Assembly: GCA_003696125.1 (NCBI GenBank)
Contig: RFHZ01000315.1
Location: 1 to 14,172 of the forward strand
Length of the DNA stretch: 14,172 bases
Origin: Nitrospinota bacterium
GTDB taxonomy: Bacteria; Tectomicrobia; Entotheonellia; J063
Reading direction: 5' to 3'
Both the position numbers and the translations under genes were made by a program. This document shows positions 3,231 to 13,151 of the stretch, in pieces. Below the pieces are notes generated by a model. The model was not told where the DNA came from, made no database searches, and saw only the letters and a list, made by a program, of their open reading frames with translations. Numbering within the stretch: position 1 is the first letter of the stretch; each line of letters begins with the position of its first letter.

Positions 3231-4796
3231 ATGTACAAAGACTTCTATGGACTCACAGAACAGCCTTTTAACATCACCCCGGATTCCAAGTTCCTCTACT
3301 GGAGTCCGAAACACCAGGACGCCTTCCGGCATCTGGTCTACAGTATCCAGAATAAAAAGGGCCTCATCCTGTTGACCGGGGAAGTGGGAACGGGAAAGAC
3401 CACGGTGTTGAATGCGGTGGTCGAGCATTTTAAAGCCCTGGATCCCCAGAACCGGGTTGCCTTTCTGGTCCATTCCAAGCTCAAGGAGAGTGATCTCTTC
3501 CGCTATATCTTCAGCGAGTTTGGCCTGGAGGTGCAGAGGCAGGTCAAGAGCGAGTACATCGTCACGTTGAGGAATTTCCTCCTGCAAAACCGGGAAGAGA
3601 GGAGGTATATCCTGCTCATTGTGGATGAGGCACAGAACTTTTCCCGGAGCCTGCTGGAAGAGATCCGGTTGATCTCCAACATCGAAACCCCCAAGGAGAA
3701 ACTGATCCAGATCATCCTGGCTGGCCAGCCCCAGTTGAGAAAGATCATCGATTCTCCAGCCCTCTACCAGTTAAAGCAGCGGATCGGGATCAGCTATAAC
3801 ATCCTGCCACTGAATTATCTGGAGACCAGGTCGTATATTCAAAAGCGTCTCCAGATTGCCGGGGCCAAGGAAGAGCCCCTCTTCCTGCCAGAGGCCATGG
3901 AAGCTGTCTATCATTACTCCGGGGGGATTCCCAGGGTGATCAATATCCTCTGTGATAATGCCCTCCTCTTCGGCTGTGCAACCCAGCAGGCCCAGATCGG
4001 CCCGGCGATCATCGCGCAGGTAGCAGAGAGCATGCATCTACGACAGAAGAAAGTCCTCCAGCCAGCAGCAACCACCGAACCCTCTCCCCCCCAGCCGCCA
4101 GAACCGGTCGATAGTTTCATCATTCATCAGGCAAGAGGGGATATGGATCGCGCTGCCCGTCGTATCAAACGGGGTGCGACCCGTCGCATTAAGCGAAAAG
4201 GGTCTTACTGGTATCTCCTCCCCCTGGGTGTGATCCCCCTGGTGCTGTTTCTGGCCTGGTTGTTCCTGTCTCCTGGAGCAGCCTCGATGCGGGATCAGGG
4301 GAGACAGATCATGCACTCCCTCCAAACGGCATTCTCCGGGTGGTTTGCTTTGACCAGGACAGATCCTCCTCCGTCTACCCCTTCTCCCATCACCCCAAAA
4401 GAAGAGTCTCCCCAGGAGGTGGTTCAGGAACGACCGCTGCCCCAGCCTGTGGATGTCCCTCCAGCCGGTCAAGGGGAGGTGGTGGACCCGGTAGTGGAGA
4501 CGCTTACTCCGGCTGGAGCGATCCCGACGAGTGCTGCATCAGGAGACGCACCCGCAGATGAAGCGCTCCCCTGGCCAGCCTCTGCTCCTGCCAGAGAGGC
4601 ATCACCGTTACCAGAGGGGGGAAGGATCAAAAAGGTGGTGACGGTGCAGGAAGGGGATACGCTGACCGATATCCTGCTGCGGGAATACGGTGAGTACGAT
4701 GCTACCCTGCTGGATCTGATCGAGCGCGTGAACCCCCAGATAGTGGATATCAATCTGATAACGGTGGGACAGCAGATCCGTTTGCCGGAACGTTAA
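3231..4796 (+). CDS. ExeA/GspA-like AAA ATPase with membrane anchor and LysM domain
   Basis: A 521-residue protein whose first 270 residues are an AAA ATPase of the ExeA/GspA type, close to the ATPases found in exosortase/exopolysaccharide loci. It begins MYKDFYGLTEQPFNITPD, and has Walker A GEVGTGKTT (50-58), Walker B ILLIVDEAQN (127-136), AGQPQLR (164-170) and GGIPRVINILCDNAL (231-245). A basic stretch (308-323) precedes a single membrane helix (about 326-346). A Pro-rich, probably periplasmic linker (about 375-465) leads to a C-terminal LysM domain (about 469-518, from VTVQEGDTL to QQIRLPE), which should bind peptidoglycan. ATP hydrolysis in the cytoplasm could thus be coupled to the cell wall, perhaps to open peptidoglycan for the export machine. 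Classical GspA carries a different peptidoglycan-binding domain. It lies 31 bp after the exporter gene. Confidence 0.85.
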   Translation: MYKDFYGLTEQPFNITPDSKFLYWSPKHQDAFRHLVYSIQNKKGLILLTGEVGTGKTTVLNAVVEHFKALDPQNRVAFLVHSKLKESDLFRYIFSEFGLEVQRQVKSEYIVTLRNFLLQNREERRYILLIVDEAQNFSRSLLEEIRLISNIETPKEKLIQIILAGQPQLRKIIDSPALYQLKQRIGISYNILPLNYLETRSYIQKRLQIAGAKEEPLFLPEAMEAVYHYSGGIPRVINILCDNALLFGCATQQAQIGPAIIAQVAESMHLRQKKVLQPAATTEPSPPQPPEPVDSFIIHQARGDMDRAARRIKRGATRRIKRKGSYWYLLPLGVIPLVLFLAWLFLSPGAASMRDQGRQIMHSLQTAFSGWFALTRTDPPPSTPSPITPKEESPQEVVQERPLPQPVDVPPAGQGEVVDPVVETLTPAGAIPTSAASGDAPADEALPWPASAPAREASPLPEGGRIKKVVTVQEGDTLTDILLREYGEYDATLLDLIERVNPQIVDINLITVGQQIRLPER

Positions 4797-4873
4797 GAAG
4801 AGGATCTGTAAAATCGCCTGCCTCTCTTCCCATACCTTCATAACAGAATCCTTTCTCTAAGGTGGATATGTCC

Positions 4874-7744
4874 ATGAAAAATCTCCCTGCTTCCCCTGCT
4901 CCTCGAGAGTCTCTGCAGCGACAAGAGACAGAGTATGTCTATCTTGTCCCTGAGATGGAGGGGACTCCAGAAACCTCTTTGCGAGATTATTTTCGGATCA
5001 TCTGGCGCCGGAGATGGCTGGTGCTGGCTCCTCTCTGCCTCCTTCTTCCCCTGGTGGTGTTGAATCTCTCGGTACAGAAACCGGTCTATCAGGCCACGGC
5101 AACCCTCCTTATCGAGAATACCAACCCGCGTATCGTCCCCATTCAGGAGGTCTCCGCTCCTGATCGCTCCCCCAATTTCTATCAGACGCAGTATGAGATG
5201 ATCCGGAGTCGATCCATCGCGGAACAGGTGGTCGATGCCTTTCAGTTGGACAAGCGTCCCCCGGTCCAGGACTCAGCCCTGGTGCGCTTCATGCGCTCGG
5301 TGAACCGTTTTCCCAGCCGCATGCTCACCAAGATGCTCAACCTGCTGAAGCCTGCCCCCCCTCCTGAACAACCTGCCCCTTCCTCCAGGGGGGAGAGGAG
5401 AGGCAATGACCCGGCAGAGGTGCATCGGCAAAATGTCATCACCCAGTTTCAGGGTGCCATCCTGATCGAACCGCGCAAAGAGACCAAGCTTGTCGATATC
5501 TCCCTGCGGGGGTCCAGGCCGAGAGAGATCACGGCCATGGTCAACATGATTGCCGAGATCTATGTGCGCCAGAACCTGGAGAACAAGCTGGCAGAGACGA
5601 AAAAGGCGATCGACTGGCTGACCAAGGAAGGGGAACAACTGCAGGAGAAGGTACACCAGGCAGAGATGGAACTCCAGAGTTTTCGCGAGCAGAACAAGTT
5701 TGTTTCCCTGGATCTGGGAGAACGGCAGAATATCGTGCTGCAGAACCTGGGGGATCTGAATGCGTCCTACATGGATACCAAGGCCCAGCGGGTAGAGCTC
5801 CAGACCCGCATCAACGAGTTGCGGCGGCTCTCGGCCCAGGATATCACCATGATCGAGTCTTTTCCCGGGGTGTTGGAGAACTCGCTGATCCAGTCGCTCA
5901 AGAACCGCTATATCGATCTAAAACGCCAGTACGTCAACCTCTCCAAGCGCTATAAGGAGAAACACCCGAAGATGGTACAGCTCCGCTCCGAGATGCAGGA
6001 GGTAGAGCGGACCATTGATCGGGAAGTGCAGAAGATCGTCAACAGCCTGGAGACAGAGTACCGATCTCTGCTGGCCAAGGAAAGGGCGTTTGCCGGGGCC
6101 CTCAATGCGCAGAAAAACGAGACATTGAACCTCAACAAGGATGTGATAACCTATAACACCCTCAAACGGAATGTCGAGACGTACAGGGAGCTGTACCAGG
6201 CCATCTCTACCCGGCTGGCCGAGACCAAGCTGACCGAGGCGCTGGCAACCAACAACGTGAAGATCGTGGAACGGGCCGTCGTACCCGCCTGGCCTCTCCC
6301 CTCGCGCAAAGGGGCCAAGCTGCTCCTGGCGATCGTGGCCGGCCTGGGGCTGGGCATCGGCCTCGCCTTGTTGAGTGAACATCTGGATACCAGGCGGTTT
6401 AAGGCTGCCGATGAGGCGGAACAGTACCTCGACCTCCCTCTCCTGGGTATCGTGCCCCGCTATAAGCTCCCCCACCGGCATGAGCCGGGAATAATAATGT
6501 TGCAGGACCCCAGGTCTATTGCGGCAGAGGCGTATCGCACCATCCGCACCTGGATCCAGCTCTCGACCCAGACTCCGGCCCAGACCCTCCTGGTAACGAG
6601 CGCCATTCCGGATGAGGGGAAGACAACGACCAGTGCCAATCTGGCCGTGGCCTTTGCCCAGCTCGGCCAGCGGGTCTTGATCATGGATGCCGATCTCCGC
6701 TTCCCTTCCCTGCATCACCTCTTCGATGTCCCCAATAGCACCGGATTGACCGATATCCTGGTGCAGGGAAGGGATTGGAGGGAGGTGGTCCAGGAGACCG
6801 ATCTCCCCAACCTCAGGATTCTCCCCAGTGGAGTCGAACCGCCAAACCCGACCGAGTTGTTGAGCACACGGCGGATGCATAGCCTCCTGGCCCAATTGAA
6901 AGAGGCCTTTGATCTCGTCCTCATCGATTCCCCGGTGACCCTCTCCATACCGGATGTGGCCATCTTAGCGCCACGGGTAGATGGGGTGGTGCTGGTTCAT
7001 TACCCGATCAAGGGAGACAAGGCGGCTGTGCTCACCGCGAAAAGACTGCTGGAGCGGGCGCAGGCTCGCCTGCTGGGCATCATCTTTAACAATGTGCAAC
7101 AGCATGAGAGTACCTTCTACTCCTCTTATACCGGTGGGTATCACAACCGGTATGCCTATGTCCCGACTCCGGCACCCCAGGATGAGGAGCCGGTCAGGCA
7201 CCCGCCAGAGACACGGGTCGATCCGGTCCCTGCCGAGGCAGATCCCTTCCCGGCCCTTGCTCCAGGAATCCCCTGCAAAATCGGGGAGACGGTACGCAGC
7301 GGGGAGCTGGTCTGCACCGTACACGAAATCCTTTGGCAGCAACAGATCGGCACGCACCGGGCCGATTACGGTTTTGCCTTTCTCCTGCTTGATCTCACCC
7401 TGACCAACGAAGCAGAGGATCCCTATCTCTTCGATCCCGAGCAGACGGCCATCTATGTGGAAGAGCAGAGCACCTATGGTAAAGCCCTGGCCTCCCTCAT
7501 CTTGGTAAACGGGATAGAAGGGGAGGTGACTCCACAAGAGCCGCATATCGCCCGTTGCGATCCGATTACGGCCACCCTGGAACAGGGGTTTGAGAGGGAG
7601 GAGATAGAAGGACACCATACCCGCAGCGGTCTACTGGTTTACCAGGTTCCGGAAGAGACGAGCTCCTTTACCTTTGCCTATGAGAGCGAGGAGGTACAGA
7701 TCATCATCCCGCTGACCAAGCGTACAGGTACTACGAGGTATTAA
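4874..7744 (+). CDS. Wzz/Wzc-type polysaccharide co-polymerase and tyrosine autokinase with C-terminal DUF4352-like domain
   Basis: This protein controls chain length and couples synthesis to export. Numbering uses ATG 4874 (956 aa), chosen because AAGGTGG (4859-4865) sits 8 nt upstream; GTG 4862 and ATG 4868 are alternatives. After a Wzz domain with a first membrane helix (about 48-66), a long periplasmic coiled-coil region (about 230-440) carries the GNVR-type segment. A second helix lies at about 482-500. The BY-kinase domain has the oligomerisation motif EAYRTIR (552-558), Walker A AIPDEGKTT (577-585), Walker A' VLIMDADLR (601-609) and Walker B LVLIDSP (681-687). A tyrosine cluster, FYSSYTGGYHNRYAY (748-762), is the likely autophosphorylation tail. 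Unlike ordinary Wzc, about 190 more residues follow: a Pro/acidic linker and a DUF4352-like beta-rich domain (about 801-948). It lies 77 bp after the ATPase gene. Confidence 0.88.
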   Translation: MKNLPASPAPRESLQRQETEYVYLVPEMEGTPETSLRDYFRIIWRRRWLVLAPLCLLLPLVVLNLSVQKPVYQATATLLIENTNPRIVPIQEVSAPDRSPNFYQTQYEMIRSRSIAEQVVDAFQLDKRPPVQDSALVRFMRSVNRFPSRMLTKMLNLLKPAPPPEQPAPSSRGERRGNDPAEVHRQNVITQFQGAILIEPRKETKLVDISLRGSRPREITAMVNMIAEIYVRQNLENKLAETKKAIDWLTKEGEQLQEKVHQAEMELQSFREQNKFVSLDLGERQNIVLQNLGDLNASYMDTKAQRVELQTRINELRRLSAQDITMIESFPGVLENSLIQSLKNRYIDLKRQYVNLSKRYKEKHPKMVQLRSEMQEVERTIDREVQKIVNSLETEYRSLLAKERAFAGALNAQKNETLNLNKDVITYNTLKRNVETYRELYQAISTRLAETKLTEALATNNVKIVERAVVPAWPLPSRKGAKLLLAIVAGLGLGIGLALLSEHLDTRRFKAADEAEQYLDLPLLGIVPRYKLPHRHEPGIIMLQDPRSIAAEAYRTIRTWIQLSTQTPAQTLLVTSAIPDEGKTTTSANLAVAFAQLGQRVLIMDADLRFPSLHHLFDVPNSTGLTDILVQGRDWREVVQETDLPNLRILPSGVEPPNPTELLSTRRMHSLLAQLKEAFDLVLIDSPVTLSIPDVAILAPRVDGVVLVHYPIKGDKAAVLTAKRLLERAQARLLGIIFNNVQQHESTFYSSYTGGYHNRYAYVPTPAPQDEEPVRHPPETRVDPVPAEADPFPALAPGIPCKIGETVRSGELVCTVHEILWQQQIGTHRADYGFAFLLLDLTLTNEAEDPYLFDPEQTAIYVEEQSTYGKALASLILVNGIEGEVTPQEPHIARCDPITATLEQGFEREEIEGHHTRSGLLVYQVPEETSSFTFAYESEEVQIIIPLTKRTGTTRY

Positions 7745-7749
7745 GCTCT

Positions 7750-10212
7750 ATGCTCAAGCGATCTATCGACATCTGTCTTGCCCTCTTGGGCCTGACCTTT
7801 TTCCTCCCCCTGCTCCCCCTGCTCGGTCTGCTCATCAAACTCGATTCCCGGGGACCGATCTTCTACCTGTGTGACCGGGTGGGGAAAGGGGGGGAAGTGT
7901 TTAAGATGTACAAGCTGCGCACCATGTATGAGACGCTGGTCGATATTGGGACGAGTGTTTCTCCGGCCGGGGATCCCCGGGTAACACCGGTGGGACGGTT
8001 TCTGCGCCGCACCAAGCTCAACGAATTCCCCCAACTGTTCAATATCTTGAAAGGAGAGATGACCTTTGTGGGACCGCGTCCCGAGTCCCCGGATCTGGCC
8101 GCCCTCTATCCAGAGGAGGCCCAGAAGATCTTCAGCGTCACCCCGGGGCTGGTCGGTCCGAACCAGATTTTGGGTCGGAACGAAGAGGAGTGGTATCCCC
8201 CTGATGCCGATCCGCAGCAGTACTACATCGAATCGATCCTCCCCCACAAGCTGCCGCTCGACCTGGAGTATGTGGAGCAGTCCTCTACCTTCAAGGACCT
8301 GAAATACATCCTGCTGGGAGTCAAGGAGACCCTCTTCAAGGCGATCAGTTGGAAATTTGTCCTGCAGAAGCGCTCGCAGATCTATCTCCTGCTGGCCGAT
8401 GCCGGTCTGGTCATCCTCTCCTTTGTCCTGGCCCATCTCCTCCGCTTTGAAGGGCTCCCCGAGGGACCGTACCACCGCTTCTTTCTCCAACTGTTACCCC
8501 TGGTGGTGGTCATCCGCCTCTCCTGCTTTCTCTACTTTGGACTCTATAAGACCCTCATCCGTTACCTCTCCACCGCCGACATCATTGCCGTATGCAAGGC
8601 GGTCTCTCTAGGGAGCTTCCTCCTGGTCGGCCTCTCCTTCTTCCTGGACCTCCGCCCCTTTTCCCGGGCCGTCTTTCTCATCGATTGGCTCTGCCTGATC
8701 CTCTTCATGAGCTCGTTGCGTCTCGGCCTTCGCTTCCTCTGGGAACGACGCGCCAAAAAGCCGGTGAACCGGAATCAGAGACGGGTACTCATCTTCGGGG
8801 CTGGAGACGCAGGAGTCCTGGCCTATCAGTCGCTTATGGCAGAAAAGGGGAAGTTTGACGTGGTCGGGTTTCTCGACGACGATCCGGCCAAGCGCCACAA
8901 GATGTTGTTCGGAAAGCGAGTGCTGGGTGATCGTTTTAATCTCGAAGCCGTGGCCAAACTCTACCGGGTCCATGAGATACTGCTCGCCATCCCCAGTGCC
9001 CCGCCTCAGGAGGTGGCCAGGGTGGTACAGGCCTGCCAGCGGGCAGGGGTGCAGTTTCGCATCTTTCCCACCCTCAAGGATACGGGTACCCCCTCCCTTT
9101 TCAATCCTTCTTCTCCGGAGCGAGATCTGGCCTTTCTCTTGGGACAGGAAGAGATGGGCGTGGATATGCCTACCATCCGACGCCTGGTGCAGGGAAGGCG
9201 TGTCCTCGTCGCTGGAGCGAGTAGTGCGGTGGGGATAGAACTGTGTCGCCAGCTCCTCCGCTTTGCTCCTCAGAAGCTGATCATCATCGACCATGATGAA
9301 GCCTATCTGACCGAGCTCCTCATCCATCTCCTGGAGGAAGCATCTGCTGACCAGATTGTCCCGCTCCTCTGTCCGTCAGGCGGTACAGAGGAGAAGAGCG
9401 AAGAGATCGTGAGCACATACAGACCAGAGATCGTCTTCCAGTTGGGATTGCGGAAATATCCTCCCCTCTTCGATTTTCAGATAGAGCATCTGGCCTGGAG
9501 AAATTCTCTCTCCACATTTCACCTGGCCCGGCAGGCGGCTCAGAATGGCTGCCAGTACTTCGTCCTGGTCTCCTCCCTCGAGGCGGCCAGGCGTGACCAT
9601 CCGCTTTCTGCATCGCTCCGCACCGTTGAGCTCAGTTTGCGCCTCTTTTTTGCTGCACAACAGACGACACTGGTCACGGTACGGCTCTGTGATGTCCTGG
9701 AGAGTCGGGGAGGAATCGTGGCCCTGCTCGAACAGCAGATCATCGGTCGCCAACGGTTACTCCTTCCCCGGCGAGAGATAAAGCATCCTTTCCTCTCCAA
9801 GCAAGGGGCGGTGCGTTTTCTGCTGGGATCTCTGGCTCTTGCCGACACTCTCCCCTCAGAGCAGGCGGGGATCTTCGTCTGTACACGGAGCAAGGCTCTT
9901 TCCCTGGCAGAGATCGCCGGCAGGCTGGCCACCCTCTATGGATTACAGCTTGAGGAGGAGATCCCGGTGGAATATCTTCCCCCTCTGGAAGGGGAAAGCT
10001 CACCAGGTACTCCCCGGTCGACAGGAGAAGAACCTCCTCTAGGCAGCACGCAGAATCCGGGCATCGGCATAATGCGGGAAGAGCCCCCTGCCGAGATGCA
10101 GGAAGTCTCCCGGAACATCCAGCCCCTCTTCACCCGTCCTGTGCAGGATTTTTTCAATGTGAACTGGTATGATCACACCCAACACCTCTTACTACGGGAA
10201 GGTACACGCTGA
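7750..10212 (+). CDS. Fusion of initiating phosphoglycosyltransferase with CapD/PglF-like dehydratase (catalytic residues altered)
   Basis: An 820-residue fusion. Residues 1-200 are a monotopic PGT (Bac_transf, WcaJ/PglC type) that would transfer a sugar-1-phosphate to undecaprenyl phosphate; they show a membrane hairpin (8-30), DRVGKGG (42-48), YKLRTM (54-59), NEFPQLFNILKGEM (91-104) and FVGPRPE (106-112). The usual catalytic Asp-Glu pair reads Asn91-Glu92. Residues about 205-820 follow the FlaA1/CapD/PglF plan: four membrane helices (about 213-325), an intact first Rossmann domain (VLIFGAGDAG, 346-355; VVGFLDDDPAKR, 371-382) and a second nucleotide-binding fold (VLVAGASSAVGIELCRQL, 485-502). 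The family's S/T-D-K and downstream Met/Tyr and Lys are replaced (SSLE at 608-611, then no YxxxK), so 4,6-dehydratase activity is doubtful. Residues 745-785 are low-complexity. The gene begins 5 nt after the kinase gene, so they are probably translated together. Confidence 0.85.
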   Translation: MLKRSIDICLALLGLTFFLPLLPLLGLLIKLDSRGPIFYLCDRVGKGGEVFKMYKLRTMYETLVDIGTSVSPAGDPRVTPVGRFLRRTKLNEFPQLFNILKGEMTFVGPRPESPDLAALYPEEAQKIFSVTPGLVGPNQILGRNEEEWYPPDADPQQYYIESILPHKLPLDLEYVEQSSTFKDLKYILLGVKETLFKAISWKFVLQKRSQIYLLLADAGLVILSFVLAHLLRFEGLPEGPYHRFFLQLLPLVVVIRLSCFLYFGLYKTLIRYLSTADIIAVCKAVSLGSFLLVGLSFFLDLRPFSRAVFLIDWLCLILFMSSLRLGLRFLWERRAKKPVNRNQRRVLIFGAGDAGVLAYQSLMAEKGKFDVVGFLDDDPAKRHKMLFGKRVLGDRFNLEAVAKLYRVHEILLAIPSAPPQEVARVVQACQRAGVQFRIFPTLKDTGTPSLFNPSSPERDLAFLLGQEEMGVDMPTIRRLVQGRRVLVAGASSAVGIELCRQLLRFAPQKLIIIDHDEAYLTELLIHLLEEASADQIVPLLCPSGGTEEKSEEIVSTYRPEIVFQLGLRKYPPLFDFQIEHLAWRNSLSTFHLARQAAQNGCQYFVLVSSLEAARRDHPLSASLRTVELSLRLFFAAQQTTLVTVRLCDVLESRGGIVALLEQQIIGRQRLLLPRREIKHPFLSKQGAVRFLLGSLALADTLPSEQAGIFVCTRSKALSLAEIAGRLATLYGLQLEEEIPVEYLPPLEGESSPGTPRSTGEEPPLGSTQNPGIGIMREEPPAEMQEVSRNIQPLFTRPVQDFFNVNWYDHTQHLLLREGTR

Positions 10213-10214
10213 CC

Positions 10215-11222
10215 ATGGATAACACAGCAACCGCTTATTGGCAGACGCAGCAGGTACTCGTTACCGGTGCGGGCGGATTCATCGGGAGTCATCTGACCAG
10301 ACGGCTGGTGGAGCTAGGGGCCCGGGTACGCGCCTTTGTACATTACAACTCTCGCAACGACTGGGGCCTTCTCGAGCTTCTCCCTCAGGAGGTTCTGGAA
10401 GCGGTGGAAGTAACGTGCGGAGACCTCACCGATCCTCTACTCGTCCGCCGGGTGGTCACCGGTTGTCAGACCGTATTTCATCTGGGGGCGTTGATCGCTA
10501 TCCCTTATTCCTATCAGGCGCCCCGCCATTTCCTCGACACCAATATCTGGGGCACGCTCAACGTGTTACAGGCCTGCCTGGAAACGCGGGTGGAGAAGGT
10601 GGTGCACACCTCGACGAGCGAGACGTACGGTTCGGCCCGGTACACCCCGATCGACGAGGAGCACCCTTTACAGGCGCAATCCCCTTATGCGGCAAGCAAA
10701 ATTGCGGCAGACAAGCTGGCAGAGAGCTTTTACTGCTCCTTTGACCTGCCGGTGGCCACCATCCGGCCATTTAACACCTTTGGGCCCTGCCAGTCTGCCC
10801 GGGCCGTGATCCCTACCATCATCACCCAGGCTCTGGTTGCGGACACGGTCAGGCTCGGTACCCTCACCCCGGTACGGGATTTCACCTTTGTCGAGGATAC
10901 GGTATCCGGCTTCCTCCTGGTGGCCGCATCGGAGAAGAGTGTGGGACAGGTCTTCAACGTAGGCATGGGATACGGACTCAGCATCGGAGAGCTGGCAGAA
11001 GCGATCTTCAAGCTCTTTGACCGGCCCAAGCAGATCGTCACCGAGGATGAGCGGCTCCGACCAGAGCAGAGCGAGGTGATGACTCTCATCTGTGACAGCA
11101 CCAAAGCCAGAAACATTCTGGGCTGGAAACCTGCTTATACTTTGGAGCAGGGACTACGCTGCACCGTAGATTACATTCGGAGTCACCTGCATCGATACAA
11201 ACCGACCATCTTTAATCGCTAA
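10215..11222 (+). CDS. legB: LegB-like NAD-dependent nucleotide-sugar 4,6-dehydratase
   Basis: A 335-residue extended short-chain dehydrogenase that most resembles LegB, which turns a nucleotide-GlcNAc into the 4-keto-6-deoxy sugar in the cytoplasm. It has the NAD site GAGGFIG (18-24), and characteristic stretches VHYNSRNDWG (42-51), ALIAIPYSYQAP (92-103), HTSTSETYGS (131-140) and QSARAVIPTIITQ (183-195). The catalytic Thr134/Glu136 and YxxxK (Tyr158, Lys162) are all present, unlike in the preceding fusion protein. This enzyme could therefore provide the working dehydratase of the cluster. It starts 2 nt after the fusion gene, with AAGG inside that gene as ribosome site. LegB identity is from motif memory; whether it uses a UDP- or GDP-sugar cannot be told from sequence. 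Confidence 0.8.
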   Translation: MDNTATAYWQTQQVLVTGAGGFIGSHLTRRLVELGARVRAFVHYNSRNDWGLLELLPQEVLEAVEVTCGDLTDPLLVRRVVTGCQTVFHLGALIAIPYSYQAPRHFLDTNIWGTLNVLQACLETRVEKVVHTSTSETYGSARYTPIDEEHPLQAQSPYAASKIAADKLAESFYCSFDLPVATIRPFNTFGPCQSARAVIPTIITQALVADTVRLGTLTPVRDFTFVEDTVSGFLLVAASEKSVGQVFNVGMGYGLSIGELAEAIFKLFDRPKQIVTEDERLRPEQSEVMTLICDSTKARNILGWKPAYTLEQGLRCTVDYIRSHLHRYKPTIFNR

Positions 11223-11242: not shown

Positions 11243-11956
11243 ATGCAAGCGGTTATTCTCGCAGGTGGTAAGGGTAAGCGGCTCCTCCCTTTTACTCGCG
11301 TGTTTCCTAAACCTCTGGTTCCTTTGGGAGACAGGCCGATTCTCGACATGATTCTCCGCCAGTTGAAACACTTCGGTTTCACGCGGGTAACCCTGGCCGT
11401 GGGGCACATGGCGGAGATGATTCAGACCTATGTCCAGCAGGGGGAACGGTATGGACTCGCGATCGAATACTCTTACGAAGACGAACCCCTAGGGACGGCC
11501 GGCCCTCTGGCCCAGATTTCCAATCTGGAGTCGCGCTTTTTGGTGATGAACGGAGATCTGGTCACCACCCTCGATTATCAGGATCTCCTCGCTTTTCACC
11601 AACGGCACGGGGCCGTTGCCACCATCGGTACCTATCAGAAGACCTTCAAGGTGGAGTTGGGTATTGTCGAGAATGATGAGCACAACTTCCATGCCATTGT
11701 CGGGTACATCGAGAAACCGGTCTTTACCTTCAGTGTGAGCATGGGGATTTATGTGTTTGAAGCAGAGGTGTTGCAGTATATCGAGCCGAACAAGTATCTG
11801 GATTTTCCCCACCTGGTGAAACGGCTTCTGGTCAACAAACAGAAGGTCGTGAGTTACCCCTTCGACGGATACTGGCTCGATATCGGAACGCATACCGATT
11901 ATGAAAAGGCGCTCGAGGAATTTGAGCTGATCAAGGAGAAGCTTCATCTTGACTAA
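11243..11956 (+). CDS. Sugar-1-phosphate nucleotidyltransferase
   Basis: A 237-residue NTP_transferase-family enzyme that joins a sugar 1-phosphate to an NTP, giving a nucleotide sugar and pyrophosphate. It shows the signature LAGGKGKRLLPFT (6-18), PKPLVP (22-27), the metal-binding NGDLVTT region (103-109, Asp105) and YIEKP (155-159). It has only the catalytic fold, without the left-handed beta-helix or acyltransferase tail of GlmU or the CBS domains of PtmE. Between a LegB-like dehydratase and an aminotransferase it may supply their substrate (for example GDP- or UDP-HexNAc) or, with gmd downstream, GDP-mannose. The substrate cannot be read from sequence. The ribosome site GAAGGACAGG precedes the ATG. 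Confidence 0.85.
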   Translation: MQAVILAGGKGKRLLPFTRVFPKPLVPLGDRPILDMILRQLKHFGFTRVTLAVGHMAEMIQTYVQQGERYGLAIEYSYEDEPLGTAGPLAQISNLESRFLVMNGDLVTTLDYQDLLAFHQRHGAVATIGTYQKTFKVELGIVENDEHNFHAIVGYIEKPVFTFSVSMGIYVFEAEVLQYIEPNKYLDFPHLVKRLLVNKQKVVSYPFDGYWLDIGTHTDYEKALEEFELIKEKLHLD

Positions 11957-13151
11957 CTGGAAGGTACCACTGGCCGATATCGATCTGGGGGAAGAGGAAA
12001 TACAGGCGGTCAACACGGTCTTGCGATCCCGCTGGCTTTCCATGGGGCCGGTCACGGCCGAGTTTGAGCGGTGTTTTGCCGAATACCTGGGGGTACGCTA
12101 TGCCTTTGCCGTGACCAACTGTACCGTTGCCCTCCACCTGGCCCATCTGGCCTTGGGAGCAGGACCGGGGGATACGGTGCTCTGTCCATCCCTGACCTTT
12201 GTGGCCACGGCCAATGCCATCTGTTATACCGGAGCCACGCCGGTGTTTGTCGATATCACCGGCACAGAAGATTTTAACCTCTCCCCAGAGGATATCGAGG
12301 CCAGGATCGATGCCTCCACCAGGGGGATATGCGTGATGCACTACGGGGGATACCCCTGTGACATGGAGCGGATCATGCAGATAGCGAGGAGACATGACCT
12401 CTACGTGGTGGAGGATGCCGCCCATGCCCCGGGTGCTGCCTGCTGGATGCCGCTACAATCCGGGAAAGAGAAAGAGCCTGCGGAAAGGGTGCTCCAGAAG
12501 TGTGGGACCATAGGCGATATCGGCTGCTTTAGCTTCTTTGCCAACAAGAACATGACCACAGCCGAAGGGGGGATGATCACCACCAACAACCCTGAGCTGG
12601 CCGAACGGATTCAACGGCTCCGTTCCCATGGGATGACCAGCCTGACCTGGGATCGAGAGCAGGGGCATGGCTTCAGCTACGATGTGGTGGCGCTCGGGTA
12701 CAATTACCGCCTGGACGAGCTCCGTGCCGCCCTGGGCCTGGTACAGCTAGGGAAACTCCCTGCCCTTACCCAGCGCCGTGTGGAGATCACCCTGGCCTAC
12801 CGGGAAAAACTCGACGGGCTGCCGGGTCTCTCCCTTCCCTTCCGCCACCTCCCCCATCTCGCTGCCTATCATATCTTTCCCATCCTCCTGGACAGGGATT
12901 TGGATCGCCACGCCTTCATGCAGTTCATGAAGGCGCAGGGAATCCAGACCAGCATTCACTATCCTCCCATCCACAGGTTTACCCACTATGCGGCGATGGG
13001 CTATGGAGGAGAGAGGCTGCCTCATACCGAAGATATCGCCGACCGGGTGGTGACCCTCCCCCTCTATCCCCAGATGGGAAGGAGCCAGGTAGACTATGTG
13101 GCCGCCGCGGTAACGGAGTGGATAGTCACGAACACTTCCTCGGCATCATAA
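11949..13151 (+). CDS. DegT/DnrJ/EryC1/StrS-family nucleotide-sugar aminotransferase
   Basis: A 400-residue PLP enzyme that would aminate a 4-keto sugar nucleotide, with Glu or Gln as likely donor. Asp156 in VVEDAAHAPG (153-162) should contact the PLP ring nitrogen. Lys200 in FSFFANKNMTTAEGG (194-208) is the Schiff-base lysine, and HGMTSLTWDR (217-226) and LGYNYRLDELRAALG (239-253) are typical of the family. Residues about 166-186 form a charged insertion longer than usual before GTIGDIGCFSF. The start is TTG at 11949, overlapping the previous gene by 8 bp, with AAGGAG (11933-11938) 10 nt upstream; this suggests translational coupling. It could act after the LegB-like enzyme (LegC/PglE-like role) or on the gmd product (perosamine synthase-like). 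I cannot separate these. Confidence 0.85.
   Translation: MTNWKVPLADIDLGEEEIQAVNTVLRSRWLSMGPVTAEFERCFAEYLGVRYAFAVTNCTVALHLAHLALGAGPGDTVLCPSLTFVATANAICYTGATPVFVDITGTEDFNLSPEDIEARIDASTRGICVMHYGGYPCDMERIMQIARRHDLYVVEDAAHAPGAACWMPLQSGKEKEPAERVLQKCGTIGDIGCFSFFANKNMTTAEGGMITTNNPELAERIQRLRSHGMTSLTWDREQGHGFSYDVVALGYNYRLDELRAALGLVQLGKLPALTQRRVEITLAYREKLDGLPGLSLPFRHLPHLAAYHIFPILLDRDLDRHAFMQFMKAQGIQTSIHYPPIHRFTHYAAMGYGGERLPHTEDIADRVVTLPLYPQMGRSQVDYVAAAVTEWIVTNTSSAS

Follow-up and report, generated by a model that had tools for sequence, protein, structure and literature searches.

The enzymes closest to the gene studied here act in pathways in which a dehydratase, a DegT aminotransferase and a phosphoglycosyltransferase (PGT) are combined, as in PglF-PglE-PglC of C. 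jejuni and EpsC-EpsN-EpsL of B. subtilis (PMC10653937). The catalytic residues of PglF, T395-D396-K397 together with M405 and K409, lie in a TDKxnMx3K motif (PMC8987622), and an Asp-Glu dyad is stated to occur in all members of the monotopic PGT superfamily (PMC10519829). Large monotopic PGTs are defined by four N-terminal transmembrane helices (4TM) and a DUF, followed by a C-terminal PGT domain, and in M. xanthus one of them, EpsZ, is activated by a response regulator, probably by favouring the dimer (PMC12802240). The DUF of WbaP forms a dimer and binds uridine nucleotides, and it has been described as puzzling that large PGTs and PglF-like dehydratases have the same 4TM-DUF module (PMC10942596).

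In the window, by which we mean the whole stretch of 14,172 nucleotides that was analysed, modules of these enzymes are joined in a single chain. The fused protein has the N-terminal catalytic fold, PRP motif and re-entrant helix of the small monotopic PGTs (PglC, EpsL, CapM), but carries Asn-Glu for the Asp-Glu dyad and is fused to a membrane pseudo-dehydratase. It resembles the dehydratases PglF, WbpM, CapD and EpsC in fold and in the order 4TM, CoA_binding_3, Polysacc_synt_2, whereas it has a PGT added in front and is without the TDKxnMx3K residues. As in the large monotopic PGTs WbaP, WcaJ and EpsZ, a PGT, four transmembrane helices and the same DUF occur in one chain, but the PGT comes first, the reverse of the order that defines that class, and a PglF-like domain is added. 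The component parts are already known and the protein is a recurrent fusion of known kinds. The literature searched, the coverage of which was incomplete, contained no description of the PGT-first fusion family, its reversed-order descendants without dehydratase, the reciprocal decay of its halves or the Asn-Glu variant; earlier notice of such fusions is possible.

Architecture of the fusion and its distribution

An earlier note on this DNA had described a PGT and a CapD/PglF-like part with four helices and two Rossmann folds in one reading frame, and both Pfam and AlphaFold2 agree with this description. The frame starts with ATG and contains no internal stops, and Pfam recovers all three expected domains (Table 1). 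The AlphaFold2 model of the whole chain (mean pLDDT 86.5, pTM 0.65, low confidence being limited to linkers and the last residues) has a PGT fold with a re-entrant helix (residues 2-32), membrane-length helices at 208-233, 240-262, 275-298 and 306-332, and then two Rossmann domains. The N-terminal PGT half of the model matches C. concisus PglC in Foldseek and has its PRP motif within GPRPE (108-112); in the motif alignment, the Rossmann/DUF part (344-438) retains GAGDAG and FLDDD. The predicted third domain aligns with C. jejuni PglF (5bjv) with Z 35.7 and rmsd 2.8 over 329 residues. An antisense open frame of 249 amino acids (7741-8490, minus strand) overlaps the PGT half and is probably an artefact of codon composition.

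Table 1 Features of the fused gene and its neighbours in the window
Feature	Residues	Position	Strand	Evidence
Wzz-type chain-length regulator with BY-kinase domain, directly upstream of the fusion		4862-7744	+	Pfam, NCBIfam
Fused gene: PGT, four transmembrane helices, CoA_binding_3/DUF, pseudo-dehydratase	820 aa	7750-10212	+	Frame, Pfam, AlphaFold2, fused homologues
Monotopic PGT domain	1-195	7750-8334	+	Pfam Bac_transf (3-194, 169.6 bits, cut-off 27); PglC match in Foldseek
Asn-Glu replacing the catalytic Asp-Glu dyad, motif KLNEFPQ	91-92	8020-8025	+	Alignment; pattern surveys
Four transmembrane helices	208-332	8371-8745	+	AlphaFold2 helices
CoA_binding_3 region	263-440	8536-9069	+	Pfam (57.6 bits); motif alignment
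PglF-type dehydratase domain, folded, without catalytic residues	459-807	9124-10170	+	VIA-align; motif loss; Pfam Polysacc_synt_2 (485-745, 87.7 bits)
S609-L610-E611 where PglF has T395-D396-K397	609-611	9574-9582	+	Alignment
LegB-like soluble 4,6-dehydratase, TGAGGFIG and TSE...Yx3K intact		10215-11222	+	TIGR04180; motif
Sugar-1-phosphate nucleotidyltransferase		11243-11956	+	Pfam NTP_transferase
DegT-family PseC/LegC-like sugar aminotransferase		11949-13151	+	Pfam and NCBIfam

The window makes up an entire contig of a MAG that is fragmented (990 contigs, 8% contamination), and elsewhere PGT and PglF genes are neighbours without being fused (L004, L016, L058, L065, L087), so that one might suspect two neighbouring genes to have been joined through a missed stop or a contig mis-assembly. 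We consider such an artefact extremely improbable, since many independent assemblies contain this junction. About 20 other genomes have PGT-first fusions that share it, and the junction segment 120-345 alone aligns straight through in Desulfobacca sp. STE_27 (L032, 157 bits) and in G049 (L003, 147 bits). The assembly join or frameshift at residues 195-215 that had been foreseen as the weak point was thus not borne out.

Further fusions were found with a profile built from the fused proteins. The full architecture occurs in nine relatives, and PGT-4TM-DUF without the dehydratase in ten, which are reversed-order analogues of the WbaP/WcaJ class. In the phylum of G049 (82 genomes) there are eight full-length fusions (L003/L046, L047-L053) and three without dehydratase (L055, L059, L062), and among 297 genomes sampled from the Desulfobacca phylum one (L072) and seven (L032/L066, L070, L071, L073-L076), respectively. 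The pairing therefore recurs in at least two phyla, and the approximately 20 fused loci rule out a one-off fusion. A separate PGT-4TM-DUF fusion in G048 (L026:1435-3429), cut by the contig end, has a third domain that aligns to a dehydratase with the motifs absent; because this domain is not recognised by Pfam and the contig ends there, it is uncertain whether the protein counts as a second dead-dehydratase fusion. Frames of 414-722 amino acids in G086 (C9, C44), G087 (C67, C104) and G088 (C324) match part of Bac_transf, mostly the C-terminal half, and are possibly more PGT fusions or truncated PGT domains.

The adjacent unfused genes are a plausible source of the fusion. One such pair, in G055 (L004), was suggested to be a fusion by a long open frame, but translates as two adjacent genes. 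In a tree of the 4TM-DUF part, 18 fused proteins cluster together (support 85/89), with L050 and L072 placed among unfused PglFs, and a single origin of all fusions, these two included, is rejected (p-AU 0.004). As judged from these sequences, the fusion arose at least three times.

The inactive dehydratase half and its possible replacement

The dehydratase half had been called apparently inactive, and the loss of its catalytic motif supports this: besides the replaced triad (Table 1), L619 and L623 align to M405 and K409 of PglF. Where a TGxxGxxG NAD-binding motif would be expected the window has AGASSAVG (488-495), with two of the three glycines kept. The domain may be a currently functionless remnant heading for deletion, an idea to which the sister sequences L032, L070 and L071 and the groups of L055 and L073 lend some weight, having lost the dehydratase while PGT-4TM-DUF was kept. 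Such decay seems unlikely to us, since a neutral tail is expected to gather stops, whereas the approximately 330 codons of the dead half are free of frameshifts and in-frame stops (each of the remaining five frames has 4-8 stops) at only 26-29% identity to the intact fusions (about 28% to functional forms). Together with the high pLDDT and the close structural match of the confident model to PglF, this makes the dead half look retained instead of rotting.

We infer that the dead domain persists because it has a structural or sensing part to play, either as a scaffold at the membrane or as a module that senses nucleotides. By analogy with the nucleotide-binding, dimerising DUF of WbaP and the activation of EpsZ by a response regulator, a regulatory role beside a PGT would be reasonable. 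The scaffold or substrate-sensing role proposed in the earlier note is thus the best reading for the window, but its preference over channelling does not extend to the ancestor: coupling of the two activities, or channelling, is a plausible ancestral state, since nine relatives have an intact dehydratase and five of these an intact PGT as well.

The five with both motif sets intact are L003, L047, L048, L050 and L072. The other four (L049, L051, L052, L053) have an intact dehydratase and a broken PGT motif (DG, KS, VH and NC, respectively), and the window is the opposite case. Identities over PGT, TM and dehydratase parts follow the same division: 55/51/58 for the intact pair L003-L048, with the dehydratase best conserved, 49/36/28 for the window and L003, with the dehydratase worst conserved, and 37/58/70 for the PGT-dead pair L049-L052, with the PGT worst conserved. 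The Polysacc_synt_2 score of the window compares with 352-391 bits in five other fusions scanned, and for Bac_transf the two PGT-dead fusions that were scanned score about 74 bits, compared with 170-197 elsewhere. Motifs and domain identities indicate that each half was retired in a different lineage, a reciprocal decay that, like the adjacent LegB-type dehydratase, was not part of the earlier note.

In the window the fusion is followed by the LegB-like dehydratase (TIGR04180, 436.6 bits, below the cut-off of 475), the nucleotidyltransferase, the DegT aminotransferase and GMD; none of the genes in the window was recognised as an acetyltransferase. A DegT aminotransferase lies beside almost every fusion, so that the intact fusions fit the PglF-PglE-PglC and EpsC-EpsN-EpsL sets, although there the dehydratase and PGT are separate genes. 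Six of the 11 loci whose dehydratase is dead or missing have a separate 4,6-dehydratase of LegB or PseB/FnlA type, as does none of the nine with an intact one (Fisher p 0.014), and a separate PGT gene lay near three of the four PGT-dead fusions and none of 16 others (Fisher p 0.0035), tests that rest on phylogenetically few events. For dehydratase loss, a single branch of the fused-only tree splits intact from dead or lost forms, and an independent-pairs test has one pair and no power. In G307 the fusion, a nucleotidyltransferase, LegB and DegT form a near-minimal cluster between unrelated genes, and no nonulosonic-acid genes were recognised beside it. The replacement idea is weakened by L073-L076, which have a DegT neighbour and no recognisable replacement dehydratase; the GalE-like SDRs beside them were rejected for that role since their motif, SCS...Yx3R, is unsuitable. 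The separate dehydratase in G355, which sits in an FnlA-type FucNAc set, also counts against it, and the product of LegB and the nucleotidyltransferase may be a GDP-sugar and not a UDP-sugar.

The Wzz/BY-kinase protein ends, after a tyrosine-rich tail, in a DUF4352 (residues 806-891), which is unusual for a cytoplasmic kinase. At 3231-4796 the window encodes an AAA ATPase of the XrtA/PEP-CTERM-associated type (ExeA/GspA-like) with a hydrophobic segment and then a C-terminal LysM domain. In Desulfobacca sp. STE_27 (L032:1896-4546 and 7441-8967) an exosortase-like gene follows the dehydratase-less fusion, and three nearby proteins end in VPLP-type CTERM sorting signals.

The Asn-Glu variant in the PGT half

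The Asn at position 91, absent from the observations of the earlier note, sets the PGT half apart from its superfamily, of which it otherwise has the Bac_transf domain and fold as well as the PRP motif. Pattern searches found the Asn version of the motif in the window only, among 241 genomes of about 219 families, and in three of the 297 genomes sampled from the Desulfobacca phylum, where the Asp version gave 48 matches in 59 genomes; these counts are lower bounds, as pattern searches miss divergent motifs. Two of the three are the fused sisters L070 and L071, the nearest relatives of the window, which argues that Asn91 was inherited and rules out a sequencing error. The dyad of L032 is Asp-Glu. 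A stand-alone small PGT in G266 (L111:1234-1797) also has the rare Asn-Glu motif, as KINELPQ, and is apparently unrelated to the fusion clade.

Under the accepted covalent-intermediate mechanism an Asn at the nucleophile should abolish or cripple activity, and the genome of the window contains a single further PGT (C355), whose dyad is normal and which could act for the locus. With the dehydratase motifs gone and an Asn that is very rare elsewhere, both halves could be dead and the protein might regulate or scaffold the EPS complex at the membrane, the chain being started by the C355 enzyme. We find this rather doubtful, though still a live alternative because of that second PGT. The remainder of the PGT half has been conserved, with 63% identity to L070 and with short branches (0.26-0.32) for the window, L070 and L071, unlike the PGTs of L049, L051, L052 and L053, which have diverged domain-wide. 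The Bac_transf scores of the window, L070 and L071 are full (170-182 bits versus about 74 in broken PGTs), and the loci of the window, G355 and G307 have no second PGT. Since the domain is conserved apart from Asn91 and the locus has no other PGT, we judge the fused protein to be the initiating PGT of the locus and probably still active. It could even be imagined that the clade of the window, L070 and L071 works with Asn, dispensing with the standard covalent phospho-sugar intermediate and helped by the pseudo-dehydratase or DUF in compensation or regulation, and is a chemically distinct class of PGT, but we think this improbable.

The origin of the fusion would then be an adjacent PGT gene joined to a gene for a membrane UDP-GlcNAc 4,6-dehydratase of the PglF/CapD type. 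The ancestral protein probably catalysed the first and last steps in the synthesis and loading of a 4-amino-4,6-dideoxy sugar: its C-terminal half would dehydrate UDP-GlcNAc, the neighbouring DegT enzyme would aminate the product and the N-terminal PGT would put the sugar-1-phosphate on undecaprenyl phosphate. In the lineage of the window, dehydration appears now to be supplied by the adjacent soluble LegB-type enzyme, while the dead domain, folded, membrane-tethered and attached to the 4TM-DUF, would most likely serve dimerisation, sensing of NDP-sugars or nucleotides, or docking of sugar-nucleotide enzymes. The PGT half would stay the initiating enzyme of an EPS/PEP-CTERM-type locus despite its Asn. 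Taken as a whole, from fused ancestor to retained dead half, we hold this course of events to be somewhat more probable than the alternatives together.

The family illustrates how parts are added to such enzymes and dropped from them. It shows one way in which a PGT can come to have the 4TM-DUF module, namely by fusing to a PglF and then shedding the dehydratase; the window would be caught midway along this route, and the mirror-image cases lost the PGT instead. With natural Asn-Glu PGTs at hand, the need for an Asp nucleophile becomes directly testable.
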